IMG/VR virus record: IMGVR_UViG_3300028809_000030
Location: 1-42,165 of that record
Length of the DNA: 42,165 nt
Strand: one strand, 5' to 3'
Origin: a virus
Part shown: piece by piece, positions 1,314-26,585 of the stretch
Position numbering within the stretch: position 1 is the stretch's first letter
Layout: each line of letters starts with the position of its first letter
The notes under the pieces: generated by a model
Database searches by the model: none
Told to the model about the DNA's origin: nothing
The model's input: only the letters and a program-made list of their open reading frames with translations
Made by a program: the position numbers and the translations under genes

Positions 1314-3160
1314 TGGCCGAGTTTAACATCAAAGGCCCCAAGAAGCCCTCCCCAAAAGTTGTGGGCGCTGGCCCGATCAGCGCCGTCGCGGTCAAGGGTC
1401 CGAAGAAGGTAGAGAAGCAGGCTCCGCCGCCGTCCAACTTCGGCCCGTTGGAGTGGATCACCGATGCGATGCGTGGCTTCAACGACACGCTTACGTTCGG
1501 TCTGTACGACGACCTGCTGACGGCAACCGGTGTCGATCCCGAGGCGACGAAGAAGCTCGAGAATGCCGACCCCGTTGCCAGCACCATCGGCAAGATCGGC
1601 GGCTACGTGGTTCCGGGCGCTGGCGCGTCGAAGCTCGCGTCCAAAATTCCGGGGCTCGCCGCCAACACCATCCCGCGCATCTTTGCCCGCGAGTCCATCG
1701 CTAGCGGTGGCCTTTCGGCGGCCGACGATCTTATTCGCACAGGCGAAATCGACCCCTACGGTGTTGCATTAGACGCCGGTATGGGGGGCGTTTTGTCGGG
1801 TGCCATCGCCGCTGGCTCGCGTGCAATCAGCCCGACGGCCCGCGTGCGAGCCATGGGCAAGGAACTGTCTCCTGCGGACAAAGAAGCCGCCGAAGGGTTC
1901 GCCAAGTACGCCGACGATCAGGGCATTCCACTTACTGTTCCGGAGGCTGTTGGAGCCGTCGTCCCATCGAAAGTGCAGACGGTTAAGACCGGCATGGCTA
2001 AGGCGGCGCGTTCTCCGAGCGGCGCGGAAGCAGTATCGTCGTTCAACGAAGCCCGCAAGCCCGCGATGACGTCCGCTGGCAAGGCGATGATCGACGAAAT
2101 CCTCGGCGGCAAGCCATTGCCCACCAACGCGCAAATCAATGAAGCGGCGGGCGGGGCTATCGAGGACGTTGCGTCGGGGTTCCGCACCACCGCCGATCCG
2201 TATTACGCTCAGGCTGAGACGCGCAACGTTCCCCCGAGTTGGATTCCCAAGGGCGGCGCACTTTCGGAGGCCGTCAAGTACGTGTCCGACAGCCCAACGT
2301 TCCAGAAGGGGCTCAATCGAGCAGCCGGTCTGCCCAAGGGCGCTAAGGTTCCCAAGAACAGCGTGCTCGTGCTCGACGCCGTTAAGAAGCGCATGGATGA
2401 CATGGCGGCAACCGCTGCCAGCGCCGGTCGCGCCAACGAGAGTACGTTCATTACGCAGGAAATCGATGACCTGTTGAACGTCACGGACAAAGTTGCGCCG
2501 TCGTACCCGGTGGCTCGCGGCATCGCGGAGCAGGGGATCAAAACCACGGAAGGCTTGCGGGCCGGCCCATTGGGAACGTTGGCTGCGGGCGGCAACCCCA
2601 AGACGCTCACTGGTGCACTGTTCAGCGGCGTCGACGGTCCGACCTTGGACGCGTCGATCGACGCCATGTCCCATCTACCCAGCGATTTGCCGTCCGGTAT
2701 TCTGGCCCGACAGTTGGATGCCGCCGTCAACAAAAGCCCCGGCAACTTCGCCAACACCGCGCTGCCGAGCGCTTACGCCGAGGATGCTGCGGACGCTGCC
2801 CTTTCGATGGCGGGCAAAGACAGCGTCATTCCGAAGATCAAAGCAGCCAAAGCGGTCAACAACCGCAGCCCGGAGCCCTTTGTGCACGAGAACACCGGCC
2901 CTCAGGGAACGTTGTGGTCCGCTGTTCGCGACCTCGGGCAGGGCAAAGTCGCCGAAAAACTGCTGGACAGCAGTTACATCAGCAAGCTGAACCAGATGGG
3001 TCCGGTGCAGAGCGCGGTGACGAATGCCGGGCGCGGCGCGGTGATGACTGCGGGCGACGAGCGGCGCAGCAAAAAGAAAAAGAAGGAGCCGATCCGTATT
3101 CTCATCGAAGGCGGCAATGGCCTTCCCTGGGAAGACTGGATGGACGACCCTATTCCCTAA
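1313..3160 (+). CDS. Internal virion / DNA-ejection protein candidate, 615 aa
   Basis: Starts at the ATG inside the TAATG overlap with the preceding gene. The N-terminal ~40 residues are Lys/Pro-rich. Gly/Ala-rich weakly hydrophobic stretches follow (about residues 90-110 and 150-170), and then a long helical region. The C-terminus has a Lys cluster (about 585-592) and an acidic end. Such amphipathic Gly/Ala-rich proteins at the end of podovirus tail modules are often packaged and ejected with DNA. I do not recognise a specific family, and there is no lytic transglycosylase motif. It ends tail-to-tail with the minus-strand helicase, overlapping it by 11 bases with no hairpin between them. Confidence 0.7.
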   Translation: MAEFNIKGPKKPSPKVVGAGPISAVAVKGPKKVEKQAPPPSNFGPLEWITDAMRGFNDTLTFGLYDDLLTATGVDPEATKKLENADPVASTIGKIGGYVVPGAGASKLASKIPGLAANTIPRIFARESIASGGLSAADDLIRTGEIDPYGVALDAGMGGVLSGAIAAGSRAISPTARVRAMGKELSPADKEAAEGFAKYADDQGIPLTVPEAVGAVVPSKVQTVKTGMAKAARSPSGAEAVSSFNEARKPAMTSAGKAMIDEILGGKPLPTNAQINEAAGGAIEDVASGFRTTADPYYAQAETRNVPPSWIPKGGALSEAVKYVSDSPTFQKGLNRAAGLPKGAKVPKNSVLVLDAVKKRMDDMAATAASAGRANESTFITQEIDDLLNVTDKVAPSYPVARGIAEQGIKTTEGLRAGPLGTLAAGGNPKTLTGALFSGVDGPTLDASIDAMSHLPSDLPSGILARQLDAAVNKSPGNFANTALPSAYAEDAADAALSMAGKDSVIPKIKAAKAVNNRSPEPFVHENTGPQGTLWSAVRDLGQGKVAEKLLDSSYISKLNQMGPVQSAVTNAGRGAVMTAGDERRSKKKKKEPIRILIEGGNGLPWEDWMDDPIP

Positions 3161-4544
3161 ACGCGCGGATGTTTTGAAACACGGCCTGGAAAATGCCGTC
3201 CTTGCGCTCCTGCGCCTCGAGCATCCCCTTGTCTAGCTTCGTGCCGACGAGGTCAATGTTGTTAACCATGTCCGCAGTTTGTCCGTGTCGGTGATTTCGA
3301 TCCTCAATTTGTGATCGATCGTCTCCACTATACGTATTTTCAAAGAAAATGTTTGTGGAGCATCGGTTCTGAGGTTCAGGTCCACCCAGCAAAGTGTGTC
3401 CGTACTTAGCGGCGGTGTGTTGGAGTAGGATTGCACGGCAATTTGGGTCATTGTTAAAGCGCTCCTTTTCAGCGCGCACGTCCTCGGGGGACATTCCGCC
3501 ACCGATGTAGGCGGGCTGCAGGTCGGCTAGCTCCTGCCGCAGCATACCTAGAACATACTGATGGCGGTACGGTATTGTGACCTTACCCGGCGACGCATCG
3601 ATGACTTCGCGCAGCAGTTGCACGCGCGGGTTGTCCTTTGGTTCAACCAGAACCTCGATCTTACCGTCGTTGTCATAGATGAACCCGGCTTGGATTTGCG
3701 CCAGCTTGATGTACTTGGTGATCGCCGCGTCGACGGTCACCACATCGCCGCTGTCTAGGAACAGCACGAATTCGTCGAACATCTGGTTGAATTGATGGCG
3801 TTGACGCGCCGACATTTCGTAGTATCGGTTGCTGCGCACTTTCGGCGGCAGGTCGGTCCAATCCGCCTTGGTGGCGCGGAAAACGTGCGGCTCGATCAGC
3901 GTCGCGAGGTATTCCTCATTTTGCGCTCCGACGACCTGCTTCCCCTTAAATCCGCCCATCCGGCAAAACGCCGTCTTGAAGGCGAAGTAGTTTTTGTTCT
4001 CCAGTTGCTGGATGAACCGCATCTGACCCCATAGGTCCTGCGGGCCTTGCACGATGGGCTTGCCGGTTAAAAGGCGAGAATACCGCGCGTGCTTAGATAG
4101 TCCAATGCTGGCGATAGTCTGGGCTTTGTTGTGCCCCTTTAGCTGGATGCTTTCATCGCTGCTGATTAGCGACGGCCTTTGCGACATCCAACCAGATAAC
4201 AGTTCCTGCGTCGAGTCGGAGCGTACCGCCTCGTAGTTGACGACGACGAGCGGTGGTTTTTTGTACTGCTTGCGCAGGAACATGCCATTGGTGTTGCTGC
4301 CGCTTTCCCACAAGTGGACGTCGAACTCGAACCCCCATTTGTTTACTTCGTCCAACCAGCCACCCTTGAAGGAATTAGGGGCTTCCACGACGTGACGGGT
4401 GGCCTCCCCGCTTTCGACGAGGCGCTGGAACTCGAGCAGATCGGTATAAGTCTTGCCCAACCCCTGCTCCATGAACCAGCCAAAGCCCCGCTTGCCTTTG
4501 CTCGCCGAAAGGGCAGCCGTCTGAACGTCGTGAACCTTCGTCAA
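3150..4544 (-). CDS. SNF2-like superfamily 2 DNA helicase/ATPase
   Basis: A DNA-translocating ATPase of about 464 aa. Visible motifs: motif I EQGLGKT (about residues 26-32), motif II DES (130-132, a DExx-box variant), motif III LLTGKPI (about 158-164), and motif VI QIEDRNHRHGQ near the C-terminus, the QxxxRxxRxGQ signature of SNF2-type proteins. The frame is open upstream to 4658 inside datZ. I choose the TTG at 4544 because its TTGA overlaps the datZ stop and an AGAGGGG ribosome site sits about 9 nt upstream. It is the last gene of the Z-nucleotide/replication operon. A role in replication or recombination is likely; substrate unknown. Confidence 0.85.
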   Translation of the reverse strand: MTKVHDVQTAALSASKGKRGFGWFMEQGLGKTYTDLLEFQRLVESGEATRHVVEAPNSFKGGWLDEVNKWGFEFDVHLWESGSNTNGMFLRKQYKKPPLVVVNYEAVRSDSTQELLSGWMSQRPSLISSDESIQLKGHNKAQTIASIGLSKHARYSRLLTGKPIVQGPQDLWGQMRFIQQLENKNYFAFKTAFCRMGGFKGKQVVGAQNEEYLATLIEPHVFRATKADWTDLPPKVRSNRYYEMSARQRHQFNQMFDEFVLFLDSGDVVTVDAAITKYIKLAQIQAGFIYDNDGKIEVLVEPKDNPRVQLLREVIDASPGKVTIPYRHQYVLGMLRQELADLQPAYIGGGMSPEDVRAEKERFNNDPNCRAILLQHTAAKYGHTLLGGPEPQNRCSTNIFFENTYSGDDRSQIEDRNHRHGQTADMVNNIDLVGTKLDKGMLEAQERKDGIFQAVFQNIRAFRE

Positions 4545-5140
4545 AACCGGAACCCCTCTATCGACAACTGGCCGTTGCCGTTGAACATTGTGTCGACAAC
4601 CCTCGCATACGCAGTATAGGCGTTGCGAGCGTCCATCTGCCAGCGACTGTTGCCCCATTCCGTGTAAAAATCGTCACACTTGTCTCTGAACCGACGCTCC
4701 AAATCGCGCAGCACCGGCACCACCGTTTTGTTGCCCATGGAAATTTCGACGCGCAGAAAAATCGCTGCGTCGATGTAATCCGCCGCCTTTACGATAAAGG
4801 TGATGTCCGGTGGTATGTTGACATCGTCGTATATTGGCTCGCGCATCAACGCCGCGAACTGTTCGGACATAGCCGCCTCGTCAACGTAAGGCTTAGTGTA
4901 CGACGGCGGGTCGCCGATAACAGCCTCCAAATCGTCGTGGTCGCGAGCGATGCGCAGCAACGCCAGCAATTTCGGATCGTCGATGTCCCACCCGAAAACG
5001 TCCGTCGCCAGCCTTTCGGCGAGCTTGCAGACGTTGTGCTGGTGTTCCGCCACGGTCTGCGTGCGGATGGTCGGCATGACTTGCCAACGACGCACCACCG
5101 AAAGGCGGAAGTCGATTTCGGTCCAGATAGGGGGGTTCAT
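4541..5140 (-). CDS. datZ: DatZ-like HD-domain dATP triphosphohydrolase
   Basis: 199 aa HD phosphohydrolase of the YfbR/DatZ type. His33/His35 lie in VAEHQHNVC, the HD pair is at 68-69 in IARDHDD, and further Asp residues near 127-136 (VKAADYIDAA) complete the metal-binding helix bundle. In Z-phages such as S-2L and phiVC8, DatZ dephosphorylates dATP so that the polymerase inserts 2-aminoadenine instead of adenine. The assignment rests on the HD motifs plus its place in one operon with purZ, a mazZ-type gene and a family A polymerase. Start ATG overlaps the previous stop as ATGA. Without this context it could be called a generic 5'-deoxynucleotidase. Confidence 0.88.
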   Translation of the reverse strand: MNPPIWTEIDFRLSVVRRWQVMPTIRTQTVAEHQHNVCKLAERLATDVFGWDIDDPKLLALLRIARDHDDLEAVIGDPPSYTKPYVDEAAMSEQFAALMREPIYDDVNIPPDITFIVKAADYIDAAIFLRVEISMGNKTVVPVLRDLERRFRDKCDDFYTEWGNSRWQMDARNAYTAYARVVDTMFNGNGQLSIEGFRF

Positions 5141-5337
5141 GGCCTAGCCCTTGCGTACACGAAGACTTCGCGAGTGCATGTGGGGCACGGCAGTTTGTAG
5201 TAACCGCCGTCTCGCTGGTCCTCACCGAACGTTGCGTCCTTGGGCGTGAAGGTAAACTCACACCTGCAGTAGTTGCATCTACCCTCGCGCTCCACAGTTT
5301 CGGGCAGGACGCCGGGCTTTGTTATTTTGATTGTCAT
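5137..5337 (-). CDS. Small zinc-ribbon protein, 66 aa
   Basis: Two Cys pairs, CNYC in the middle and CPTC about 30 residues later, form a probable zinc ribbon; no other domain is visible. The start is the ATG at 5337, because it shares ATGA with the upstream stop; a longer in-frame start at 5385 would lie deep in the preceding gene. It overlaps datZ by ATGA. Function unknown. Its place between mazZ and datZ suggests a nucleic-acid or protein-binding accessory role, which is inference. Confidence 0.8.
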   Translation of the reverse strand: MTIKITKPGVLPETVEREGRCNYCRCEFTFTPKDATFGEDQRDGGYYKLPCPTCTREVFVYARARP

Positions 5338-5531
5338 TCGGTTAAGTCCTCGATTTCCTTTATCAGTGCGTTGCGGGTATCCCACACTGACTGATTGTAC
5401 GCACGATGGATGTGGTGTTCTTCACCATCCTGCATGCGGACGGTAATATAACTGTGGTCGTTGTTAACGCGCACCATCTGTATTAGGCGCGGGTCAACGT
5501 GGAGTTCAGAAGTAAGCCGCAGGAACTTCAT
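5334..5531 (-). CDS. Hypothetical protein, 65 aa
   Basis: Small charged protein with a beta-rich central part (YITVRMQDGEEHHI) and a C-terminal helix; no recognised family. Its ATG shares ATGA with the intended stop of the mazZ frame (5530-5528), and its own stop shares ATGA with the next gene, so it belongs to a tightly coupled translation chain. The premature stop in mazZ, 57 bases upstream, may reduce its translation if coupling matters. Confidence 0.75.
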   Translation of the reverse strand: MKFLRLTSELHVDPRLIQMVRVNNDHSYITVRMQDGEEHHIHRAYNQSVWDTRNALIKEIEDLTE

Positions 5532-5890
5532 TTCTTGTCCATCGCGATTGCAGAAGCGATCAGGGCGAAGTTGGCGACGTCCGCCGCTTACAACATGATC
5601 TCAACCATGTTACCACGATTGATGGCCTCCGTCAACTCATCCACCTCCTTCTGCAACAGACCCATGTTGATAGCCTGCCCGCGATCTTCCCATTTGCCCT
5701 TGTGAGCGTTGCGCCCCAATTTGTACACCATCGCGTCGACGAAGCGGAGAATGTCGGGGGCATACTGTTCCACTTCGGGTGGCACAATTACTTGCAAGCA
5801 CACGGGCGACTTAGGGTGCGGCGCTTCTGAGCACCCAAACACGTGGGGTTGTTCTCCCACTGCGCCGCACTCAATACAAACTGACGGCAT
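5528..5890 (-). pseudogene. mazZ: MazZ-type (d)NTP pyrophosphohydrolase, interrupted by in-frame TAA
   Basis: Read through codon 101, this frame gives 120 aa: an N-terminal Cys cluster (CIEC at 5-8, Cys20), the MazG-family block KLGRNAHKGKW (57-67), EVDE at 82-85 (the ExxE metal site), and after the stop AADVANFAL. In MazG enzymes the second metal site is ExxD; here the Glu codon is TAA (5590-5588) and Asp104 follows in register. The downstream frame ends in an ATGA overlap with the next gene, like the other junctions of the operon, so the full frame was clearly the gene. As written, the product stops at residue 100 without its ExxD half. MazZ enzymes hydrolyse dGTP to dGMP for PurZ. Nonsense mutation, sequencing error or readthrough are all possible. 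Confidence 0.85.
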
Positions 5891-5899
5891 TTCTGTCTC

Positions 5900-6955
5900 C
5901 TAGAACGGCAGGATATCGGAGTTGCGGGGGCCGAAGCCGTACAGGAAATCCGCGTCGACTTCGGCGGCGAACGCCTCGTTCTGCAGCCGCGACTTGAATT
6001 CCATCGCCGCCTTTTCGTCAAGGTAGTTCATGAAGTTGGCGAGAACGAAGTCCGGCTGGTTGGCGACGAGGGCTTCTCGGAACTGTTGGTCCGAGAAGGT
6101 GAAGACACGGCGCACGCGTTGCGTCACCGTGGTAAGCTCCGGCTCGACGCCGAGTTCCTGCCACGACGTTTCGCGCTGGTCGGGGTAGTGGTCGCCGCTG
6201 GAGTGACCATCGACATTGCCGACGCGGATCGGGAAAGTGCGCACGACCATGTAAGTCCGCTTTACGAACTTCGGCGCAATGCGGGCGTCGGCAATGCCCT
6301 GCATCACAGTACATTCTCGGCTCGTAACTTTGGGGTAAAACTGAGAATTGAGGCCGAGGCTGAACCCCTGCGACACCTCCATGAAATACGCCATGTACTC
6401 GGGACCGTTGCCCAGTAGTTCTTCTGAAAACCGGGTCTTGACGTTGGGCGGCATCATGAAATGCGTATGCCCGTTGACTCCCCAGACAGCGCTTCTTTCC
6501 CGCATTACTTTGCGAGCCAACGCCGACCCGGTGCCGGATCGGGTACCGGCGACTTCCGCGATAGAGCCGCCGCGTTCTGTCAGTTCGTCCTGTTCGGTGA
6601 TCACCGCCGCTCGGGGGTGCACAAAGATCGGCAGGTCCGGGAATTTTTCGGCCTCCGCCTTGAGGATCGACGGCTTGATGATTGCGCCAGCGGTTAGGAT
6701 TGCAGGGACGGTCTTGCCGAGGCGATACGACATCACAGCGAAAGAAGGCAGCTGCTTGAGGACGATCTTTTCCTCTTTGTGGTAGAACGTGTGGCCGGAG
6801 TTCGGACCGGCGTTGGACAGCACCCCGTTGAAGTCGAAGCCCTGATTGGCGGCGCGCTCTGCGAGGTAGGCAGCGAAAAGCCCCTTGCCGGTGGAGCCGA
6901 ACTGTCCGTCCACAAGGACGTGGACGCCGTTGGCGGAGAATAGGGACTTATTCAT
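5900..6955 (-). CDS. purZ: PurZ, succino-2-amino-deoxyadenylate synthetase
   Basis: 351 aa adenylosuccinate synthetase paralogue, shorter than cellular PurA (about 430 aa). The N-terminal loop reads VDGQFGSTGKG (15-25): Ser21 stands where PurA has the catalytic Asp of GDEGKG. This Asp-to-Ser change is characteristic of Z-phage PurZ, which couples aspartate to dGMP. NAGPNSGHTF (48-57) matches the PurA NAGHT block, and GTRSGTGSALARK (about 138-150) is a further substrate loop. The product needs host PurB to give dZMP. It overlaps the DUF6378 gene by ATGA and precedes mazZ by 9 bases. The call is firm from sequence plus context. Confidence 0.95.
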   Translation of the reverse strand: MNKSLFSANGVHVLVDGQFGSTGKGLFAAYLAERAANQGFDFNGVLSNAGPNSGHTFYHKEEKIVLKQLPSFAVMSYRLGKTVPAILTAGAIIKPSILKAEAEKFPDLPIFVHPRAAVITEQDELTERGGSIAEVAGTRSGTGSALARKVMRERSAVWGVNGHTHFMMPPNVKTRFSEELLGNGPEYMAYFMEVSQGFSLGLNSQFYPKVTSRECTVMQGIADARIAPKFVKRTYMVVRTFPIRVGNVDGHSSGDHYPDQRETSWQELGVEPELTTVTQRVRRVFTFSDQQFREALVANQPDFVLANFMNYLDEKAAMEFKSRLQNEAFAAEVDADFLYGFGPRNSDILPF

Positions 6956-7431
6956 GCGCGGTTCTTTCTTTTGTCGTTGAGGAAAGCCGGGATCGGGACA
7001 TCGGATGGTGTTCCGCCGCCAGTGTGGTCGGGCGACGGGTCGACCGTCACGGCAGCGGGGGCCTCCTGAACAGCCGTCGCTACGGCGTCTACCAGTGCGA
7101 CGCTGCCCGATGCCCCGGCGAGGCCACCCGCGAGCCCGGTGTAGCCGATGTCGTCGGCGTAATGCTCGCCAAGTGTCGCGTCACCGTACAACGCGCGCGC
7201 CTTCTTGAGCATCGACATCATCTGGGCCACGTCCCACGCCGAAAGGTGCACTTCCTGCGACAGCGGCATGCCCGTTCGGTGCGCAACTGCGTGGTTGATG
7301 TGTGTCGACCACAGTTCGCCGATCATGCGAAACGACGGTTCGGTGGCACCGTGTTGCGGGCCGCGCGATTTGCCGACCGCTTTCGCCGCATCGGTCATTA
7401 GGTTGATAGCTATTTCTCGATCTTTAGACAT
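6952..7431 (-). CDS. DUF6378-type phage protein, 159 aa
   Basis: Contains the pattern typical of this phage family: RGPQHGATEPSF (about 24-35), LWSTHINHA, then AWDVAQMMSMLKKARA (about 65-80) and HYADDIGYTGLAGG (about 89-102). The C-terminal ~55 residues are Ala/Pro-rich and probably disordered. The family has no assigned activity that I know of, but is common beside phage nucleotide and replication genes. It overlaps the nuclease gene by 22 bases and purZ by ATGA, so it is in the same operon. Confidence 0.8.
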   Translation of the reverse strand: MSKDREIAINLMTDAAKAVGKSRGPQHGATEPSFRMIGELWSTHINHAVAHRTGMPLSQEVHLSAWDVAQMMSMLKKARALYGDATLGEHYADDIGYTGLAGGLAGASGSVALVDAVATAVQEAPAAVTVDPSPDHTGGGTPSDVPIPAFLNDKRKNRA

Positions 7432-7829
7432 TCGTTCCAGAACCTCGTGAAGAATTGGGCGGCGGGCTCGCCGGGCAGTTGCGCGACGCAGTCACTTAGT
7501 TTAGCAGTATCCGCTGCTGTGTACAAGTACATCAGCCCTTCTTTGAAGCCGAGCAGCCACGACATGCGGAATTGAACGTAAGCGGCGTCCACCACTTCAT
7601 CGCTGTTATTTACGAACCTGTCCAGTTCGATCTTTTGGCGAAGCGTCGGGCCGAAGGATTGGTGCTCGACGCGTTTTGCTTCGATGGCGACGGTGGGGCC
7701 GAAAGGGATGCCGACCAACATGTCGAACAGGCCGACGCCGTATTGGTCTTCCAGACGACGGGCAAACCACCCGGCTTTCTGCAAGTCCTTGACCAGCGCG
7801 GTCTTGAGTTCGTTTTCTGACTTACTCAA
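7410..7829 (-). CDS. VRR-NUC-like PD-(D/E)xK nuclease
   Basis: 139 aa. Start TTG at 7829, overlapping the previous stop. The N-terminal half has the layout of VRR-NUC endonucleases: an early Glu (ENEL, 5-8), DQYGVGLFDMLVG with an Asp in the strand (28-40), then VAIEAKRVE (about 47-55), the ExK catalytic pair. Such small phage nucleases act as Holliday-junction or flap resolvases. The C-terminal half is unremarkable. Place between polymerase and purZ fits a role in replication intermediates. Confidence 0.75.
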   Translation of the reverse strand: MSKSENELKTALVKDLQKAGWFARRLEDQYGVGLFDMLVGIPFGPTVAIEAKRVEHQSFGPTLRQKIELDRFVNNSDEVVDAAYVQFRMSWLLGFKEGLMYLYTAADTAKLSDCVAQLPGEPAAQFFTRFWNECLKIEK

Positions 7830-7923
7830 AGTAGTACACCACGAGGCGCAGCACTACCATACAGGCAATGCCTGTGAACCACCCGCCCGTAAACGAGCCT
7901 ACGTCAATCGCGAGGTTGAACAA
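7822..7923 (-). CDS. Small single-span membrane peptide, 33 aa
   Basis: Begins with TTG at 7923 preceded by a strong AGGAGG site with 6 nt spacing, which lies inside the end of the upstream gene. The peptide is almost entirely one hydrophobic segment (GWFTGIACMVVLRLVVYYF). It overlaps the nuclease start by 8 bases. The good ribosome site and the packed overlaps argue it is real; function unknown. Confidence 0.6.
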   Translation of the reverse strand: MFNLAIDVGSFTGGWFTGIACMVVLRLVVYYFE

Positions 7924-8125
7924 TGAAGTCCTCCTTTTTCTTCCAGAACCAGTCCGATACAACGAACAGCTGCGTCCCAGCCCCGGTATCGTTGAAGTCA
8001 TATGTCTGCGAGCGCGGCACCCAATACCGAATGCCGGTCTGTACATCTTCGATCAGGCGGCTTTTCGCCGTAGTGTGTTCTACGATGCCCTCGAAGCTGT
8101 GGGTTTCTTCCAAGCGGCGGGCCAT
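7904..8125 (-). CDS. Hypothetical protein, 73 aa
   Basis: Starts at the ATG of TGATG, sharing one base with the polymerase stop. Beta-rich, charged, with an aromatic segment (VVSDWFWKKKEDF, about 55-67). No recognised domain. Genes directly coupled to phage polymerases can encode processivity or inhibitory partners, but nothing in the sequence shows this. Confidence 0.7.
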   Translation of the reverse strand: MARRLEETHSFEGIVEHTTAKSRLIEDVQTGIRYWVPRSQTYDFNDTGAGTQLFVVSDWFWKKKEDFIVQPRD

Positions 8126-9972
8126 CAGTACTCTCCGTAGCTTGCGTGGCCCCAGTGCTTGCCGTGGCCCTCGTCCACCGGGATCGGAACAATAAGGTTG
8201 AAATCCGGCTCCTGCGCCACCCCTTCGAGTAGACGCTTTATTGCTGCTGGGTGCTTGCCCTCTGGCTCCGCCTGGAAAATAGTGGAGTCGTGAATGGTGA
8301 GCAGAATGTCAATCCCGTCGTAGGACTCACTTTCGGCGTACTGGCAAGCTCGCAACAACGCTGTTTTCATGTGGTCGCCGCCGCTGTTCTGGATGATCCG
8401 GCTCACTGCCCGGTACGCAAATCGCGGGTGGTCGAGGTAAGCTCGTCGCCCGAGGATGGACCGCACGACGCCACGCGATTTGAACGTCGCTTTGGCGTCC
8501 TTTTGGAACTTGGCGATATCGGGGAACGCCTCGTACAAAAACTTGTTGATAGCGGACTGGGCTTGGTTTACACTCCACCGCATCTTCACTGCGAGGGACT
8601 CTGCTTGCAGACCAGTCAACACGCCGAGGCCAAGGCGCTTGGCGTAATCCCGGCCGATGTGGAAATAGCTGTCTGCGACGTCGTGAATGTCCATCGTGCC
8701 GGAGTTGTAGGCGTCGACAAGAGACTGCTGCTGCGAATAGTGGGTGAAGAACCGGGGTTCCTGCTGCTTGAAGTCATCCTCGTACATGTGGCCGAAGTCA
8801 GACTTGAGCAGAGGGCGAACTTTTCTGCCCACCACCTTATTGCGTTTGGGAAATGCCTGCAAGTTTGGGTCGGAGCAGCTGAACCGCGCCCCGGCGACGC
8901 CGTACTCGTCCGATTTCGATTGGTTCAGCGTCGGGTATACCCGCCCATTGTAATTGTTGACCAATGGGGTGATAAAGCTGTCGCGCGCCTTTTCGAGGCG
9001 GCGCACGGCGAGGATTGACTCCCCGATATCGTTAGTTTCGAGGAATGCCTCGGTGAACGATGGCTTGCCCTGAGCAGTGCGGGCAAACTGGTCATCGGTG
9101 TAGCCATTGGCCCGATACAACGCTTCCACTGCGGCGGGGCTGCGCGGGTTGAACCCCGGCTCGAACTTCCCCAATGCCCTTTTGATCTCGTTGGCGATCG
9201 ACAGCGGCTCATTCGGGTCCTCGCTCAGCACCCGCTCGGCGTACTCCATGTCGACCGCTATGCCCTTGGAATACATGCGGGCAACGTGGGGCAGGAGATC
9301 GCACTCCAGCTTCCACACCTTTCGCAGGTCCTTATCGGACCATGGGTCTTTTTCGTCGAGCAAGGGCTGCTGCTTTTCGTAGACTTCGAGTGTAGAAATA
9401 CCGTCGCCGGTAGCGTAGTCCACCGCGATAGGATCGTCGCCCGCCAGCTTCCAAAAGTGCTTCATCTGCTTCCGATCCGGCAGACCGCCGAAAAGGGAGG
9501 CTAGGTGGGCGTAAAGCTCGTCGCCTTTTTTGTGTGTAACCTTGTGGCGCTCCGCCAGATCGTCCAACCCGTAGCCGATGGTGCGATCGTCGATCAACGC
9601 CTCATTGATCATAGTATCTTCAAGTGGCGACCCAAGGCGGACGGCCATCTGTTTACCGCCGTACCCGACTTTAAGCGACATTCGTAGGTCAAAACCAAGG
9701 TTGTGGCCAACGGTGCGGTAACCTTGGCGCGAGCGGTCTTGGAATGCCGCGTCGAGCGCCTCTTCAAATTCGTCCACATTTGGAATGTTGCCTCCGCCGT
9801 CGTGGCGAACCGGCACGTAGAGGGAGTGGCCGTCGCCCGTGATAACGTACCCGACCACGTAGTCGGAATGCTCAAGCCCCGAAGTTTCGGTATCGTATGC
9901 GATGGTACCGGGGAAGTGCCGCACGATGCGCAGCGCGATTTCGGGCATAATGCCCTGTACCCAATTGGTCAT
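8125..9972 (-). CDS. dpoZ: Family A DNA polymerase with 3'-5' exonuclease (DpoZ-like)
   Basis: 615 aa from the ATG at 9972, chosen because it shares ATGA with the preceding gene. Exonuclease motifs are intact: DTE at 27-29, HNLGFD at 90-95, and YATGD at 186-190. Polymerase motifs: A with EDDFKQQEPR (Asp400), B as R441xxxK445 followed by LGLGVLTG, C as IHDS (561-563). Motif B lacks the usual aromatic residues of NFGxxYG, and motif C has Ser in place of the usual Glu of HDE. There is no 5'-3' exonuclease domain. In Z-phages this polymerase accompanies purZ and datZ and copies Z-containing DNA. Family A membership is certain; the Z preference is inferred from context. Confidence 0.93.
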   Translation of the reverse strand: MTNWVQGIMPEIALRIVRHFPGTIAYDTETSGLEHSDYVVGYVITGDGHSLYVPVRHDGGGNIPNVDEFEEALDAAFQDRSRQGYRTVGHNLGFDLRMSLKVGYGGKQMAVRLGSPLEDTMINEALIDDRTIGYGLDDLAERHKVTHKKGDELYAHLASLFGGLPDRKQMKHFWKLAGDDPIAVDYATGDGISTLEVYEKQQPLLDEKDPWSDKDLRKVWKLECDLLPHVARMYSKGIAVDMEYAERVLSEDPNEPLSIANEIKRALGKFEPGFNPRSPAAVEALYRANGYTDDQFARTAQGKPSFTEAFLETNDIGESILAVRRLEKARDSFITPLVNNYNGRVYPTLNQSKSDEYGVAGARFSCSDPNLQAFPKRNKVVGRKVRPLLKSDFGHMYEDDFKQQEPRFFTHYSQQQSLVDAYNSGTMDIHDVADSYFHIGRDYAKRLGLGVLTGLQAESLAVKMRWSVNQAQSAINKFLYEAFPDIAKFQKDAKATFKSRGVVRSILGRRAYLDHPRFAYRAVSRIIQNSGGDHMKTALLRACQYAESESYDGIDILLTIHDSTIFQAEPEGKHPAAIKRLLEGVAQEPDFNLIVPIPVDEGHGKHWGHASYGEY

Positions 9973-10263: not shown

Positions 10264-11220
10264 TTAGAACGCGTTGGCCTTGCCGCCGACGTCGCCGCCC
10301 ACTGCCGTTCCAGACGACGCGGTGTCGTCCTCTTCCTCGTTGGCACGCCAATCGGCCTCGCGGAACTGCTCGTACAGGGCCTTGCACTTGGCCCCGAGCT
10401 CTTCCTCAGCGTAGCCGTCAGCCTGATAGGCGTAGCCCTTGTAGGGGCCTTCGTCGCCGACGAGATCGACCGTCTTGATGAGGAACTTGCGGTAATAGTG
10501 GTCGACCGGGTTCTGCTCGATGTTGGACAGGAGCAGCTTGGCGGGCTTCACTGCCGACCGGGTATTGATGACAATCGCCGGACTGTGGTGCGGGAAATCC
10601 GGGAAGAACCACATGAAGTTGTAGGTGAGCGACGCCATCGGGGCCGACTGCGGGTCGCCGGGTACCGAAGTGCCGAAGTCAGCGAGCGACGGCCCATCGG
10701 GGTAGTCGACCAAGAACGAGCCCTTGACGTTAGGGCCGGTGTTGAGCTTGAACGCCTTGGGGACGCCCTTGGGCTTGACCTCGAACTCCATGTTCTCGTA
10801 GCCCTTGTCCCAGTTGACGCCGTCGCTCGACCGGGCCAGAACGCCACGGTCGTCGTTGCGGGGCGACCACAGGACGATCGACTTGCGGGTGATGATCGGA
10901 ATGCCCGTCAACACTTCGCCCAGCGGCTCGTTGGCGACGGTATGCCAGAATACGCCCGCTTTCGCGCCCGGCAGGTTGCTTTCGGCGATCTCGGGGGAGA
11001 TAGCCTGCAGCAGCTTGACGCGGGGAATGATAATATCGGTGCTGTCGATATTGCCGATCTTGGACGTCTTGCCCTTGCCCTGCAGATACGCGGGGAGTTG
11101 ACCTTCCTTCATTTCGGCGAGTGCCTGTTCAGATTTTGCCACTTTTTTCCTCGTTGGCTGCGGCGGGGGCGTAATCAGCCCGCCGTGGTGTTTCACGCTA
11201 CCGTCCGCTAGGATGATCAC
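10264..11220 (-). CDS. Possible phage ssDNA-binding protein, about 318 aa
   Basis: Start GTG at 11220, two bases after the upstream stop; another GTG 21 bases later is possible. The body is a mixed alpha/beta protein (PRVKLLQAISPE, GVFWHTVANEPLGEVLTGIPII, SIVLWSPRNDDRG). The C-terminus is acidic and flexible (ANEEEDDTASSG) and ends in Phe, as in several phage ssDNA-binding proteins such as T7 gp2.5. That tail and the place upstream of the polymerase are the only hints; no family is recognised with certainty. A stem-loop (10200-10227) follows its stop. Confidence 0.7.
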   Translation of the reverse strand: MIILADGSVKHHGGLITPPPQPTRKKVAKSEQALAEMKEGQLPAYLQGKGKTSKIGNIDSTDIIIPRVKLLQAISPEIAESNLPGAKAGVFWHTVANEPLGEVLTGIPIITRKSIVLWSPRNDDRGVLARSSDGVNWDKGYENMEFEVKPKGVPKAFKLNTGPNVKGSFLVDYPDGPSLADFGTSVPGDPQSAPMASLTYNFMWFFPDFPHHSPAIVINTRSAVKPAKLLLSNIEQNPVDHYYRKFLIKTVDLVGDEGPYKGYAYQADGYAEEELGAKCKALYEQFREADWRANEEEDDTASSGTAVGGDVGGKANAF

Positions 11221-11222
11221 GG

Positions 11223-11729
11223 TTACGCCTTGGTGATTGACGTGTAGGGAACGGTGCCGACCTTGAAGATTTCGACCGGCAGATCCTTGCCCTCGACTTC
11301 CTGCATATTCTTGGCGAACGCTGCGAGGGTCTGGGCGTTGACGGTCGGCTGGATCAAGTCGCCGTGGCCGTTTTTGCGCAGCCAATCCATGCCGATTTCC
11401 TTGTCGAGCATCGACGCCGAAAAGCGACGGCTGACGGTGACCCGACCGACACCCTCGATGTTGAACGGCGGCTTTTGGCCGGTGCGCTCGCGGATCAAGG
11501 TAAACAGATCGGGAATATCGACGCGGGAGAGGTTGTCCTCCATTTCGCCGAGCGCCTCGCGGGCGACCTTGACAGTCGCGTTGACGAGACGGAGGTCGTT
11601 GAAGTGCTTGATCACCACAACGTGATCCTGCGATGCGACGGCGGTTCGGCCTTCGTCTCGGATCGTACCGGCGATTTTGGTGAGGGTGTCGGCCACCGCT
11701 TGCAGGGCAGCCAGAGTTTCGGGGGTCAT
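11223..11729 (-). CDS. Hypothetical replication-region protein, 168 aa
   Basis: First gene after the promoter at 11775-11803. I start it at ATG 11729 with GGAG about 9 nt upstream; an in-frame ATG at 11765 lies too close to the -10. Helical N-terminal half, then VGRVTVSRRFSASML (about 107-121) and a Gly/Asp turn. No named domain. Stop is two bases from the next gene, so the pair is co-translated. Confidence 0.75.
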   Translation of the reverse strand: MTPETLAALQAVADTLTKIAGTIRDEGRTAVASQDHVVVIKHFNDLRLVNATVKVAREALGEMEDNLSRVDIPDLFTLIRERTGQKPPFNIEGVGRVTVSRRFSASMLDKEIGMDWLRKNGHGDLIQPTVNAQTLAAFAKNMQEVEGKDLPVEIFKVGTVPYTSITKA

Positions 11730-11774
11730 AAGCAGTGCTCCATGTACCGGTGCTGTGATTGGCACCGTAGGTCG

Positions 11775-25336: not shown

Positions 25337-25348
25337 GTGCGGGTGTCA
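25317..25348. promoter_or_regulatory. Inverted repeat over the Acb2-like gene promoter
   Basis: TGACACCCGCA / TGCGGGTGTCA, perfect 11 bp arms with 10 bp spacer enclosing TAACCT. Confidence 0.65.
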
Positions 25349-25366
25349 ACTTATAGGAGAGGTAAC

Positions 25367-25903
25367 GTGAACATACATAAGGCGCTGATTGACTTCTGGG
25401 AGGACCAAACCCCAGACAACACAGAAATACACTTCTCACCAAAAGGGATTGAAGAAGCATCGGCGGACGATGTAGAGTCGTTTAACAAGTTACTGAGGCA
25501 CTTGAAAGACGTAGGCTTCGACAGCAAGGTGGGAACCAACGGTGTGCTCCGTGTTTGGTGGCCTCATCCAACCAATCCGCGCCCCAACAGCGCCGAGTAC
25601 CCAATTCAGTCGCATGTATTCCAGGGCACACCGGACGCCCGGCTAGCGACCAAGGGTATGGCTACGGCCACCGGTCCATTCCGCCGTCGCTACCGCGCTC
25701 TAAGCAACGACGAAGTGCAACATCACGATAACATCAAGGATGTCGCGACGGAGCTCTGGAACCTCATCGAAGGCATCCCCGGTGTTCGTGACGCGCATTT
25801 GGACGATGTGGACACGCAAAATGTGGTCCGTCGCGACATGGCTCTGGCCCGCACCGCCCTTGAAGACACCGTGATGCGGGCGGTAAGGGCGCTGACTGCG
25901 TAA
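25367..25903 (+). CDS. Acb2/Tad1-like cyclic-oligonucleotide sponge (anti-CBASS) with N-terminal extension
   Basis: Start GTG at 25367, with TAGGAGAGG just upstream. The C-terminal ~72 residues have the Acb2/Tad1 helical-hairpin pattern: RYRALSNDEV (108-117), a helix with DNIKDVATELWNLIE (121-135), and VRRDMALARTALEDTVMRAV (154-173), ending RAL. Acb2 proteins bind CBASS and Thoeris cyclic nucleotide signals and so block abortive defence. Residues 1-90 are an extra, unrecognised domain; Acb2 alone is usually about 90 aa. Its promoter (25308-25336) carries an 11 bp inverted repeat. TAATG overlap to the next gene. The ligand is not predictable here. Confidence 0.7.
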   Translation: MNIHKALIDFWEDQTPDNTEIHFSPKGIEEASADDVESFNKLLRHLKDVGFDSKVGTNGVLRVWWPHPTNPRPNSAEYPIQSHVFQGTPDARLATKGMATATGPFRRRYRALSNDEVQHHDNIKDVATELWNLIEGIPGVRDAHLDDVDTQNVVRRDMALARTALEDTVMRAVRALTA

Positions 25904-26409
25904 TGGAAGATCGGACGGACGCTAACGGAGGCGGTTTCAACCCCATCGCTACCGACATACAGCACGACTTCGAAGTGTTTTCCACGCTTCCGAGGGCGTA
26001 TCGGCATGCGATAATAGAAGCCCGCTACAACTACAACGCCGATGAAGCTACCCGTCTCCTCAACGATATTCGCGTCGCCCTTTCGGCGGGGTCATACTTT
26101 CCGCCTGACCCAAATGAAGTAGTTTCCGAAGCGATCCGGCAGATCGCACTCAACGACGCTATGGGCGTCAAACTATCCATGGAGCAAAAATGGAAAGAAG
26201 TAAACTCAGCCCCACCGATCAGGCCGTCGAGTACGCGGCGCAATACGCCCATGAGGCGAACCGTGCGTATTGCGCCCTCCTCGGCGACAATTCTCAATCG
26301 CCTTGGAATGACGCTTCCGAGCACATCCAAGAGTCAGCCCGAGCCGGAGTTCGAGCTATTTGGTCCGGAGAGGTCCAGACTCCTGAAGACTCCCACAATT
26401 CGTGGCTGA
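25903..26409 (+). CDS. Hypothetical protein, 168 aa, with long out-of-phase overlap
   Basis: Coupled to the Acb2-like gene by TAATG. Residues 1-95 look like a normal helical protein (PRAYRHAIIEARYNYNADEATRLL, read as two adjoining helices). From about residue 96 the frame overlaps the RyR-domain gene by 220 bases and becomes Ser/Arg/Pro-rich, like a shadow frame. The authentic domain probably ends near residue 95 and the rest is a tolerated tail, unless a frameshift exists. Function unknown. Confidence 0.6.
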   Translation: MEDRTDANGGGFNPIATDIQHDFEVFSTLPRAYRHAIIEARYNYNADEATRLLNDIRVALSAGSYFPPDPNEVVSEAIRQIALNDAMGVKLSMEQKWKEVNSAPPIRPSSTRRNTPMRRTVRIAPSSATILNRLGMTLPSTSKSQPEPEFELFGPERSRLLKTPTIRG

Positions 26410-26585
26410 GGTTCAAGGAGGCCGACGGCTGGCATTACGGCCCGGTCAAGGACGAAATTCGCAAGACCCATCCGTGTTTCTTGCCGTACAAGGACCTTCC
26501 CGACAGCATGAAGGTCAAGGACTTCATTTTCCACGCCGTGGTTAAGGCCACCCTCGTTGTGCTGGGCCGTTCGCCCGCTGCTTGA
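26190..26585 (+). CDS. RyR-domain protein, 131 aa
   Basis: Carries the RyR-domain signature almost throughout: AHEANRAYCALLGD (20-33), SPWNDA, a Gly/Val turn, TPEDSHNSWLRFK (64-76), GWHYGPVKDEIRKTHPC (80-96), then PYKDLP and KVKDFIFHAVV. GGAG is 5 nt before the ATG. In prokaryotes this domain has been proposed to sense nucleotide-derived ligands in conflict systems. Sitting one gene after an Acb2-like sponge, it may be a second decoy or sensor for defence signals; that is inference. Its stop overlaps the next promoter's -35. Confidence 0.8.
   Translation: MERSKLSPTDQAVEYAAQYAHEANRAYCALLGDNSQSPWNDASEHIQESARAGVRAIWSGEVQTPEDSHNSWLRFKEADGWHYGPVKDEIRKTHPCFLPYKDLPDSMKVKDFIFHAVVKATLVVLGRSPAA

Follow-up and report, generated by a model that had tools for sequence, protein, structure and literature searches.

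The closest named phage to the sequence analysed here is the Ochrobactrum phage vB_OspP_OH (Wolominvirus OH, NC_070933), known from sewage and the one cultured member of its group, the OH-type clade, in the phage collection searched. The authors who described it labelled its purZ an adenylosuccinate synthase and left diaminopurine unmentioned (PMC7139368), and Czernecki et al. (2021) counted it as a Z-cluster phage with MazZ-2 (PMC8342488). In that work, mazZ was always conserved with the other two genes, datZ and purZ, in ten phages, and the Z content in E. coli dropped without mazZ or datZ, yet the pathway still ran (PMC8342488). Three other systems are comparable. Vibrio phage phiVC8 and its relatives, which are Z-DNA phages, combine PurZ, MazZ-2 and DatZ with a family A polymerase that has an exonuclease. 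Cyanophage S-2L has the order purZ-mazZ-datZ, with VRR-NUC and helicase genes nearby. The Arthrobacter phages Wayne and Nancia have a protein of the PurZ superfamily with the characteristic Ser, next to a family A polymerase.

The window, that is, the whole stretch of DNA analysed, is one IMG/VR virus record of 42,165 bases. Its operon lies at 3150-9972 on the minus strand, and its genes are listed below in order from the polymerase to the helicase. From mazZ to the helicase, neighbouring genes are coupled by 4-base overlaps (ATGA; TTGA before the helicase).

8125-9972, minus strand: family A DNA polymerase with 3'-5' exonuclease, DpoZ-related, 615 aa (Pfam DNA_pol_A 3e-42, NCBIfam DpoZ_1 7e-75)
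7904-8125, minus strand: 73-aa protein conserved in the clade (present in 127 loci; weak match to PHROG 8389)
7410-7829, minus strand: VRR-NUC-like nuclease, 139 aa, TTG start (PHROG endonuclease 3e-6; kept in 130 loci)
6952-7431, minus strand: DUF6378 protein, 159 aa, predicted all-helical (Pfam 1e-14; model and fold search)
5900-6955, minus strand: PurZ, 351 aa, 2-aminoadenylosuccinate synthetase homologue (NCBIfam PurZ 3e-64, trees, active-site residues)
5588-5890, minus strand: MazG-like mazZ of the MazZ-2 type, truncated, 100 aa (its match to the MazZ-2 profile ends at position 70 of 88)
5588-5590, minus strand: in-frame TAA interrupting mazZ in the column of the conserved ExxD Glu (65 of 65 alignable relatives have Glu)
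5529-5587, minus strand: remainder of the mazZ frame to the natural TGA, sequence still conserved
5334-5531, minus strand: small frame, 65 aa, ATGA-coupled (PHROG 19649, 5e-6)
5137-5337, minus strand: small ATGA-coupled frame, 66 aa counted from its ATG, with CxxC pairs
4541-5140, minus strand: DatZ-like HD phosphohydrolase, 199 aa (PHROG dATP triphosphohydrolase 2.8e-20; metal and phosphate residues kept)
3150-4544, minus strand: SNF2-type helicase, 464 aa, TTG overlapping the datZ stop (Pfam SNF2 2e-16, PHROG helicase 4e-81)

The preliminary description had proposed a minus-strand operon with purZ, an HD gene, a MazG-type gene and a family A polymerase, and this is confirmed with homology far beyond chance. 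The SNF2-like helicase, the DUF6378 protein and the two tiny coupled frames that it had listed are likewise in place. The VRR-NUC-like nuclease has the PHROG endonuclease match and a VRR-like sequence, but Pfam gave no match. Two of its statements have to be changed. The cassette had been called complete-looking, which does not hold for the sequence in its present form, where mazZ breaks off at the catalytic Glu; datZ, mazZ and purZ are thus not all intact as assembled. The arrangement had also been considered unlike the described examples, but genes 28-36 of vB_OspP_OH run from polymerase to helicase in the identical order. The layout was therefore already in GenBank and in print, since that order had been deposited and the phage counted by Czernecki et al. 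(2021). The core gene order is in fact common to about 100 IMG/VR loci.

Compared with vB_OspP_OH, the window shares the MazZ-2 type and the polymerase branch, with PurZ proteins 56% identical. The phage differs in its intact mazZ, in carrying Ser instead of Thr at the polymerase position equivalent to E. coli Tyr766, and in the space between mazZ and datZ, which holds a single small gene of another kind where the window has two. Relatives of these two small frames (5137-5531) were found in none of the related loci scanned, and they may be recent additions. The PurZ of phiVC8 is only 35% identical to that of the window, and its polymerase carries insertions 2 and 3 as well as Phe459 and Gly548, none of which occurs in the window polymerase. 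S-2L differs in its MazZ-1 instead of MazZ-2 and its PrimPol instead of a family A polymerase, whereas in Wayne and Nancia the PurZ0 forms a separate clade and a dUTPase-like gene takes the place of DatZ and MazZ (PMC12884076).

The DUF6378 protein, kept in 120 loci, was considered as a possible MazG-like enzyme. Its AlphaFold model (pLDDT 74) is all-helical and found no counterpart among solved structures (best E 4.7). Compared by profile with the DUF5664 segment of SH-Ab 15497, the protein reached a probability of 0.05%, so this assignment is not supported. Elsewhere in the window, on the plus strand, an Acb2/Tad1 hairpin-domain protein is encoded at 25337-25900 (Pfam 2.3e-12), from a phage sponge family directed against CBASS or Thoeris signals, and a RyR-domain protein at 26190-26582 (Pfam 8.6e-10).

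Regarding PurZ, the protein matched the NCBIfam PurZ model with E=3e-64 and scored 217 bits against a curated cut-off of 300; the model covers this divergent branch poorly. Its best PDB matches are the phiVC8 (6fm1) and S-2L (7odx) enzymes. Ser21 aligns with Ser23 of S-2L and Ser14 of phiVC8, in agreement with the earlier observation of a Ser in place of the catalytic Asp of PurA. A phylogeny of PurZ against PurA and known PurZ, proposed as a check in the preliminary description, placed the window protein inside phage PurZ, apart from PurA and PurZ0, with a clade support of 99/97 in a tree with PurZ0 and E. coli PurA (archaeal PurA left out). The phosphate-binding residues and the aspartate loop are retained, as are T132, Q190, V241 and R280 of S-2L PurZ. 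In the lining of the dGMP pocket, five residues (S53, A136, G137, K209 and V210) are unlike those of S-2L and phiVC8, and these differences are common to the window, OH and a further relative (L004). The predicted substrate of the window PurZ is dGMP.

The host lookup in bacterial genomes gave one match only, an 11.8-kb contig (L156, JAHFKN010000011.1) that encodes an OH-type PurZ with 46% identity and was binned with a Candidatus Gottesmanbacteria MAG. This contig is probably a mis-binned phage.

The contig encodes a single family A polymerase, at 8125-9972. Its match to NCBIfam DpoZ_1 reaches 252 of 500 bits, half of the cut-off, and its best PDB match is phiVC8 DpoZ (7pbk). The exonuclease residues and R161 and M165 of phiVC8 DpoZ are kept; Ser524 occupies the position of Gly548, and insertions 2 and 3 are absent. 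In a tree with E. coli PolA as outgroup, the OH-type polymerase clade was sister to phiVC8-like DpoZ with a support of 94/93. By its sequence, the window polymerase is therefore to be regarded as a relative of DpoZ and not as a typical DpoZ. Next to the polymerase gene, at 10267-11765 on the minus strand, lie the genes of two proteins that resemble phage Pam3 gp34 and gp33 (Pfam 4e-28 and 4e-20), and this pair adjoins the polymerase in relatives too.

Tyr766 of Pol I reportedly takes part in nucleotide selection, to go by the title of a 2013 study by Bermek et al. that is cited in PMC5872031. This position is Phe in both described DpoZ groups and Tyr in other family A polymerases (PMC8599892). 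The window has Thr453 there instead of the Phe that marks DpoZ. Thr was found in 115 and Ser in 5 of the 120 clade loci (some contigs counted twice), or in 77 and 2, respectively, of the 79 distinct proteins. The phiVC8/SH-Ab-type polymerases have Phe at this position, and E. coli and seven other phage polymerases, sampled from the phage collection irrespective of purZ, have Tyr. One small alignment was gapped at this point; assignments made with the genuine E. coli polA and with an ungapped pattern coincided in 120 of 120 loci. A polymerase scan independent of purZ covered 80 loci. purZ is present in 114 of the 120 loci with an OH-type polymerase and the other six run off the contig; as the clade arose only once, these co-occurrences do not count as independent.

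The DatZ-like protein keeps H34, H66, D67, E70, D75, D119, R19, W20, K81 and K116 of S-2L DatZ. All aligned metal ligands are conserved; I22 is replaced by Val, a conservative change, and P79 by Tyr, a non-conservative one. The HD dATPase of the preliminary description thus stands as far as the PHROG match and the ligands go, and the dATPase role itself is a prediction from them.

The 74 distinct OH-type PurZ sequences, which form one clade with a support of 100, served as the basis for counting how the three genes occur together. MazZ and DatZ are both present in 27 lineages, MazZ without DatZ in 36 and DatZ without MazZ in four; the window makes up one more and the remaining six run off the contig. 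None of the 74 lacks both. In the four distinct lineages without MazZ (L096, L107, L112 and L117), PurZ is followed directly by DatZ, and no MazZ-2 was found within 5.7-35 kb in five contigs (these four and L113). Conversely, no YfbR-like or HD domain was found in ten near-complete DatZ-less contigs of 42-45 kb that hold PurZ and MazZ (L024, L036, L076, L105, L053, L054, L140, L043, L021 and L039). Detection failure as a source of this DatZ absence was rejected, as PF12917 matched five of five control contigs and none of 12 DatZ-less ones, and PF01966 matched none of the ten near-complete contigs.

The MazZ-2 profile places mazZ directly after purZ. Profile matches reach the end of the domain in every locus of the first scan except the window, where the TAA at 5588-5590 intervenes; beyond it, the frame continues AADVANFALIASAIAMDKK to the natural TGA at 5529-5531, which still overlaps the next start codon (ATGA). 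Among 66 distinct relatives, 65 have a letter in the stop column and it is Glu in all 65, followed by an Asp three residues later. In S-2L this Glu corresponds to E50, one of the four acidic residues reported as strictly conserved in MazZ-2 (PMC8342488). Of these (S-2L E35, E38, E50 and one at 53), the window has the first two, the TAA replaces the third and the fourth is removed. In contrast, 16 of 17 conserved MazZ columns are intact, also past the stop, and the exception is the stop itself. No other interior stop within genes was found across 25,948 homology-covered bases, and no clear frameshift in these 26 kb. A sole interior stop in an otherwise conserved mazZ frame means that the change is recent, or an error. 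A recoded stop was also considered: the codon is TAA, so reading TAG as Glu leaves the frame closed, and a recoded genome was rejected as there is no further interior stop. No second copy of the strain turned up in a scan for the exact sequence pattern in which one stop-codon base was allowed to vary. No substitute pyrophosphohydrolase for MazZ was found among the 30 window proteins scanned, nor any DUF5664 in the contig.

There is about an even chance that the pathway is the same as in relatives and the stop an assembly or sequencing error, in which case the Z cassette of the virus would be complete and ordinary for the OH type. This explanation fits an event confined to one codon of a metagenome contig, with the MazZ columns conserved on both sides, and there is a precedent, as an error in the first S-2L genome concealed mazZ (PMC8342488), which is a caution against over-reading the stop in the window. 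However, apart from this codon the 26 kb of homology-covered sequence are free of interior stops and clear frameshifts, so the contig is not generally poor, and MazZ loss is tolerated, since MazZ is also missing from another sub-clade. It is quite possible, if short of probable, that the stop is real and recent, so that DatZ, PurZ and the polymerase would suffice in a natural mazZ-null, with dGMP from the host or other sources. The four lineages in which DatZ follows PurZ, with no MazZ-2 in the contig, agree with this, and PurZ with DatZ still yields some Z in E. coli without MazZ (PMC8342488); against it, every other locus with MazZ has it in intact form, and a second strain confirming the stop was not found.

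Two further explanations question the pathway itself. We judge it improbable that OH-type phages lack full Z-DNA, either because PurZ has drifted to another substrate or because Z replaces A only in part. The dGMP-pocket changes shared by the window, OH and L004, the unusual polymerase active site and the absence of DatZ from half of the PurZ lineages would fit this, but the Ser, the phosphate-binding residues and T132, Q190, V241 and R280 of S-2L are retained, and the genes for the polymerase and for MazZ or DatZ still accompany purZ. Finally, purZ could be an ordinary PurA for the AMP supply of the phage, given that both belong to the same superfamily. This is hardly credible, as the PurZ model scores 217 bits versus 123 for the best PurA model, Ser replaces the catalytic Asp, and the tree position inside PurZ contradicts it.

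The locus is a genuine Z cassette of the OH type, whose arrangement had been described before and whose mazZ is interrupted as assembled. Quite probably it represents the nucleotide-metabolism and replication genes of a Wolominvirus-like (OH-type) phage with 2-aminoadenine (Z) in its DNA. A 2-aminoadenine pathway is the best explanation for PurZ, a DatZ-like protein and a DpoZ-related polymerase standing together. In its favour are the PurZ profile, structure matches and trees, the conservation of Ser21 and most pocket residues, the polymerase as sister to phiVC8-like DpoZ, and the core order in about 100 loci; against it are the five pocket differences in PurZ, the missing signatures of described DpoZ and the broken mazZ. 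We found no report in the literature of a Z-DNA measurement in any OH-type phage. In the proposed pathway, PurZ would join aspartate to dGMP, host enzymes would convert its product into dZTP, the DatZ-like protein would destroy dATP, and the family A polymerase would copy with dZTP. MazZ would normally yield dGMP from dGTP; with mazZ cut at its catalytic Glu as assembled, dGMP would come from other sources and the Z content could be lower, which is the putative effect of the stop.

A broader proposal, which we consider unlikely, is that the OH-type enzyme is a third kind of Z polymerase, in which Thr or Ser instead of Phe would make room in the minor groove for the 2-amino group, with interchangeable pool enzymes, MazZ and DatZ being singly dispensable, and the window as a natural mazZ-null. 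That Thr or Ser could help the acceptance of the 2-amino group is our own idea. If true, a Z polymerase whose active site solves the task in another way would also be useful for Z-DNA work. No description of the clade-wide pattern of polymerase and gene content was found in the literature searched, the Science 2021 pathway papers being outside its scope. Contrary to Czernecki et al. (2021), this clade suggests that PurZ and the polymerase stay constant while the pool enzymes around them are gained and lost, and it makes testable which of polymerase choice, dATP removal or dGMP supply is needed to exclude A.
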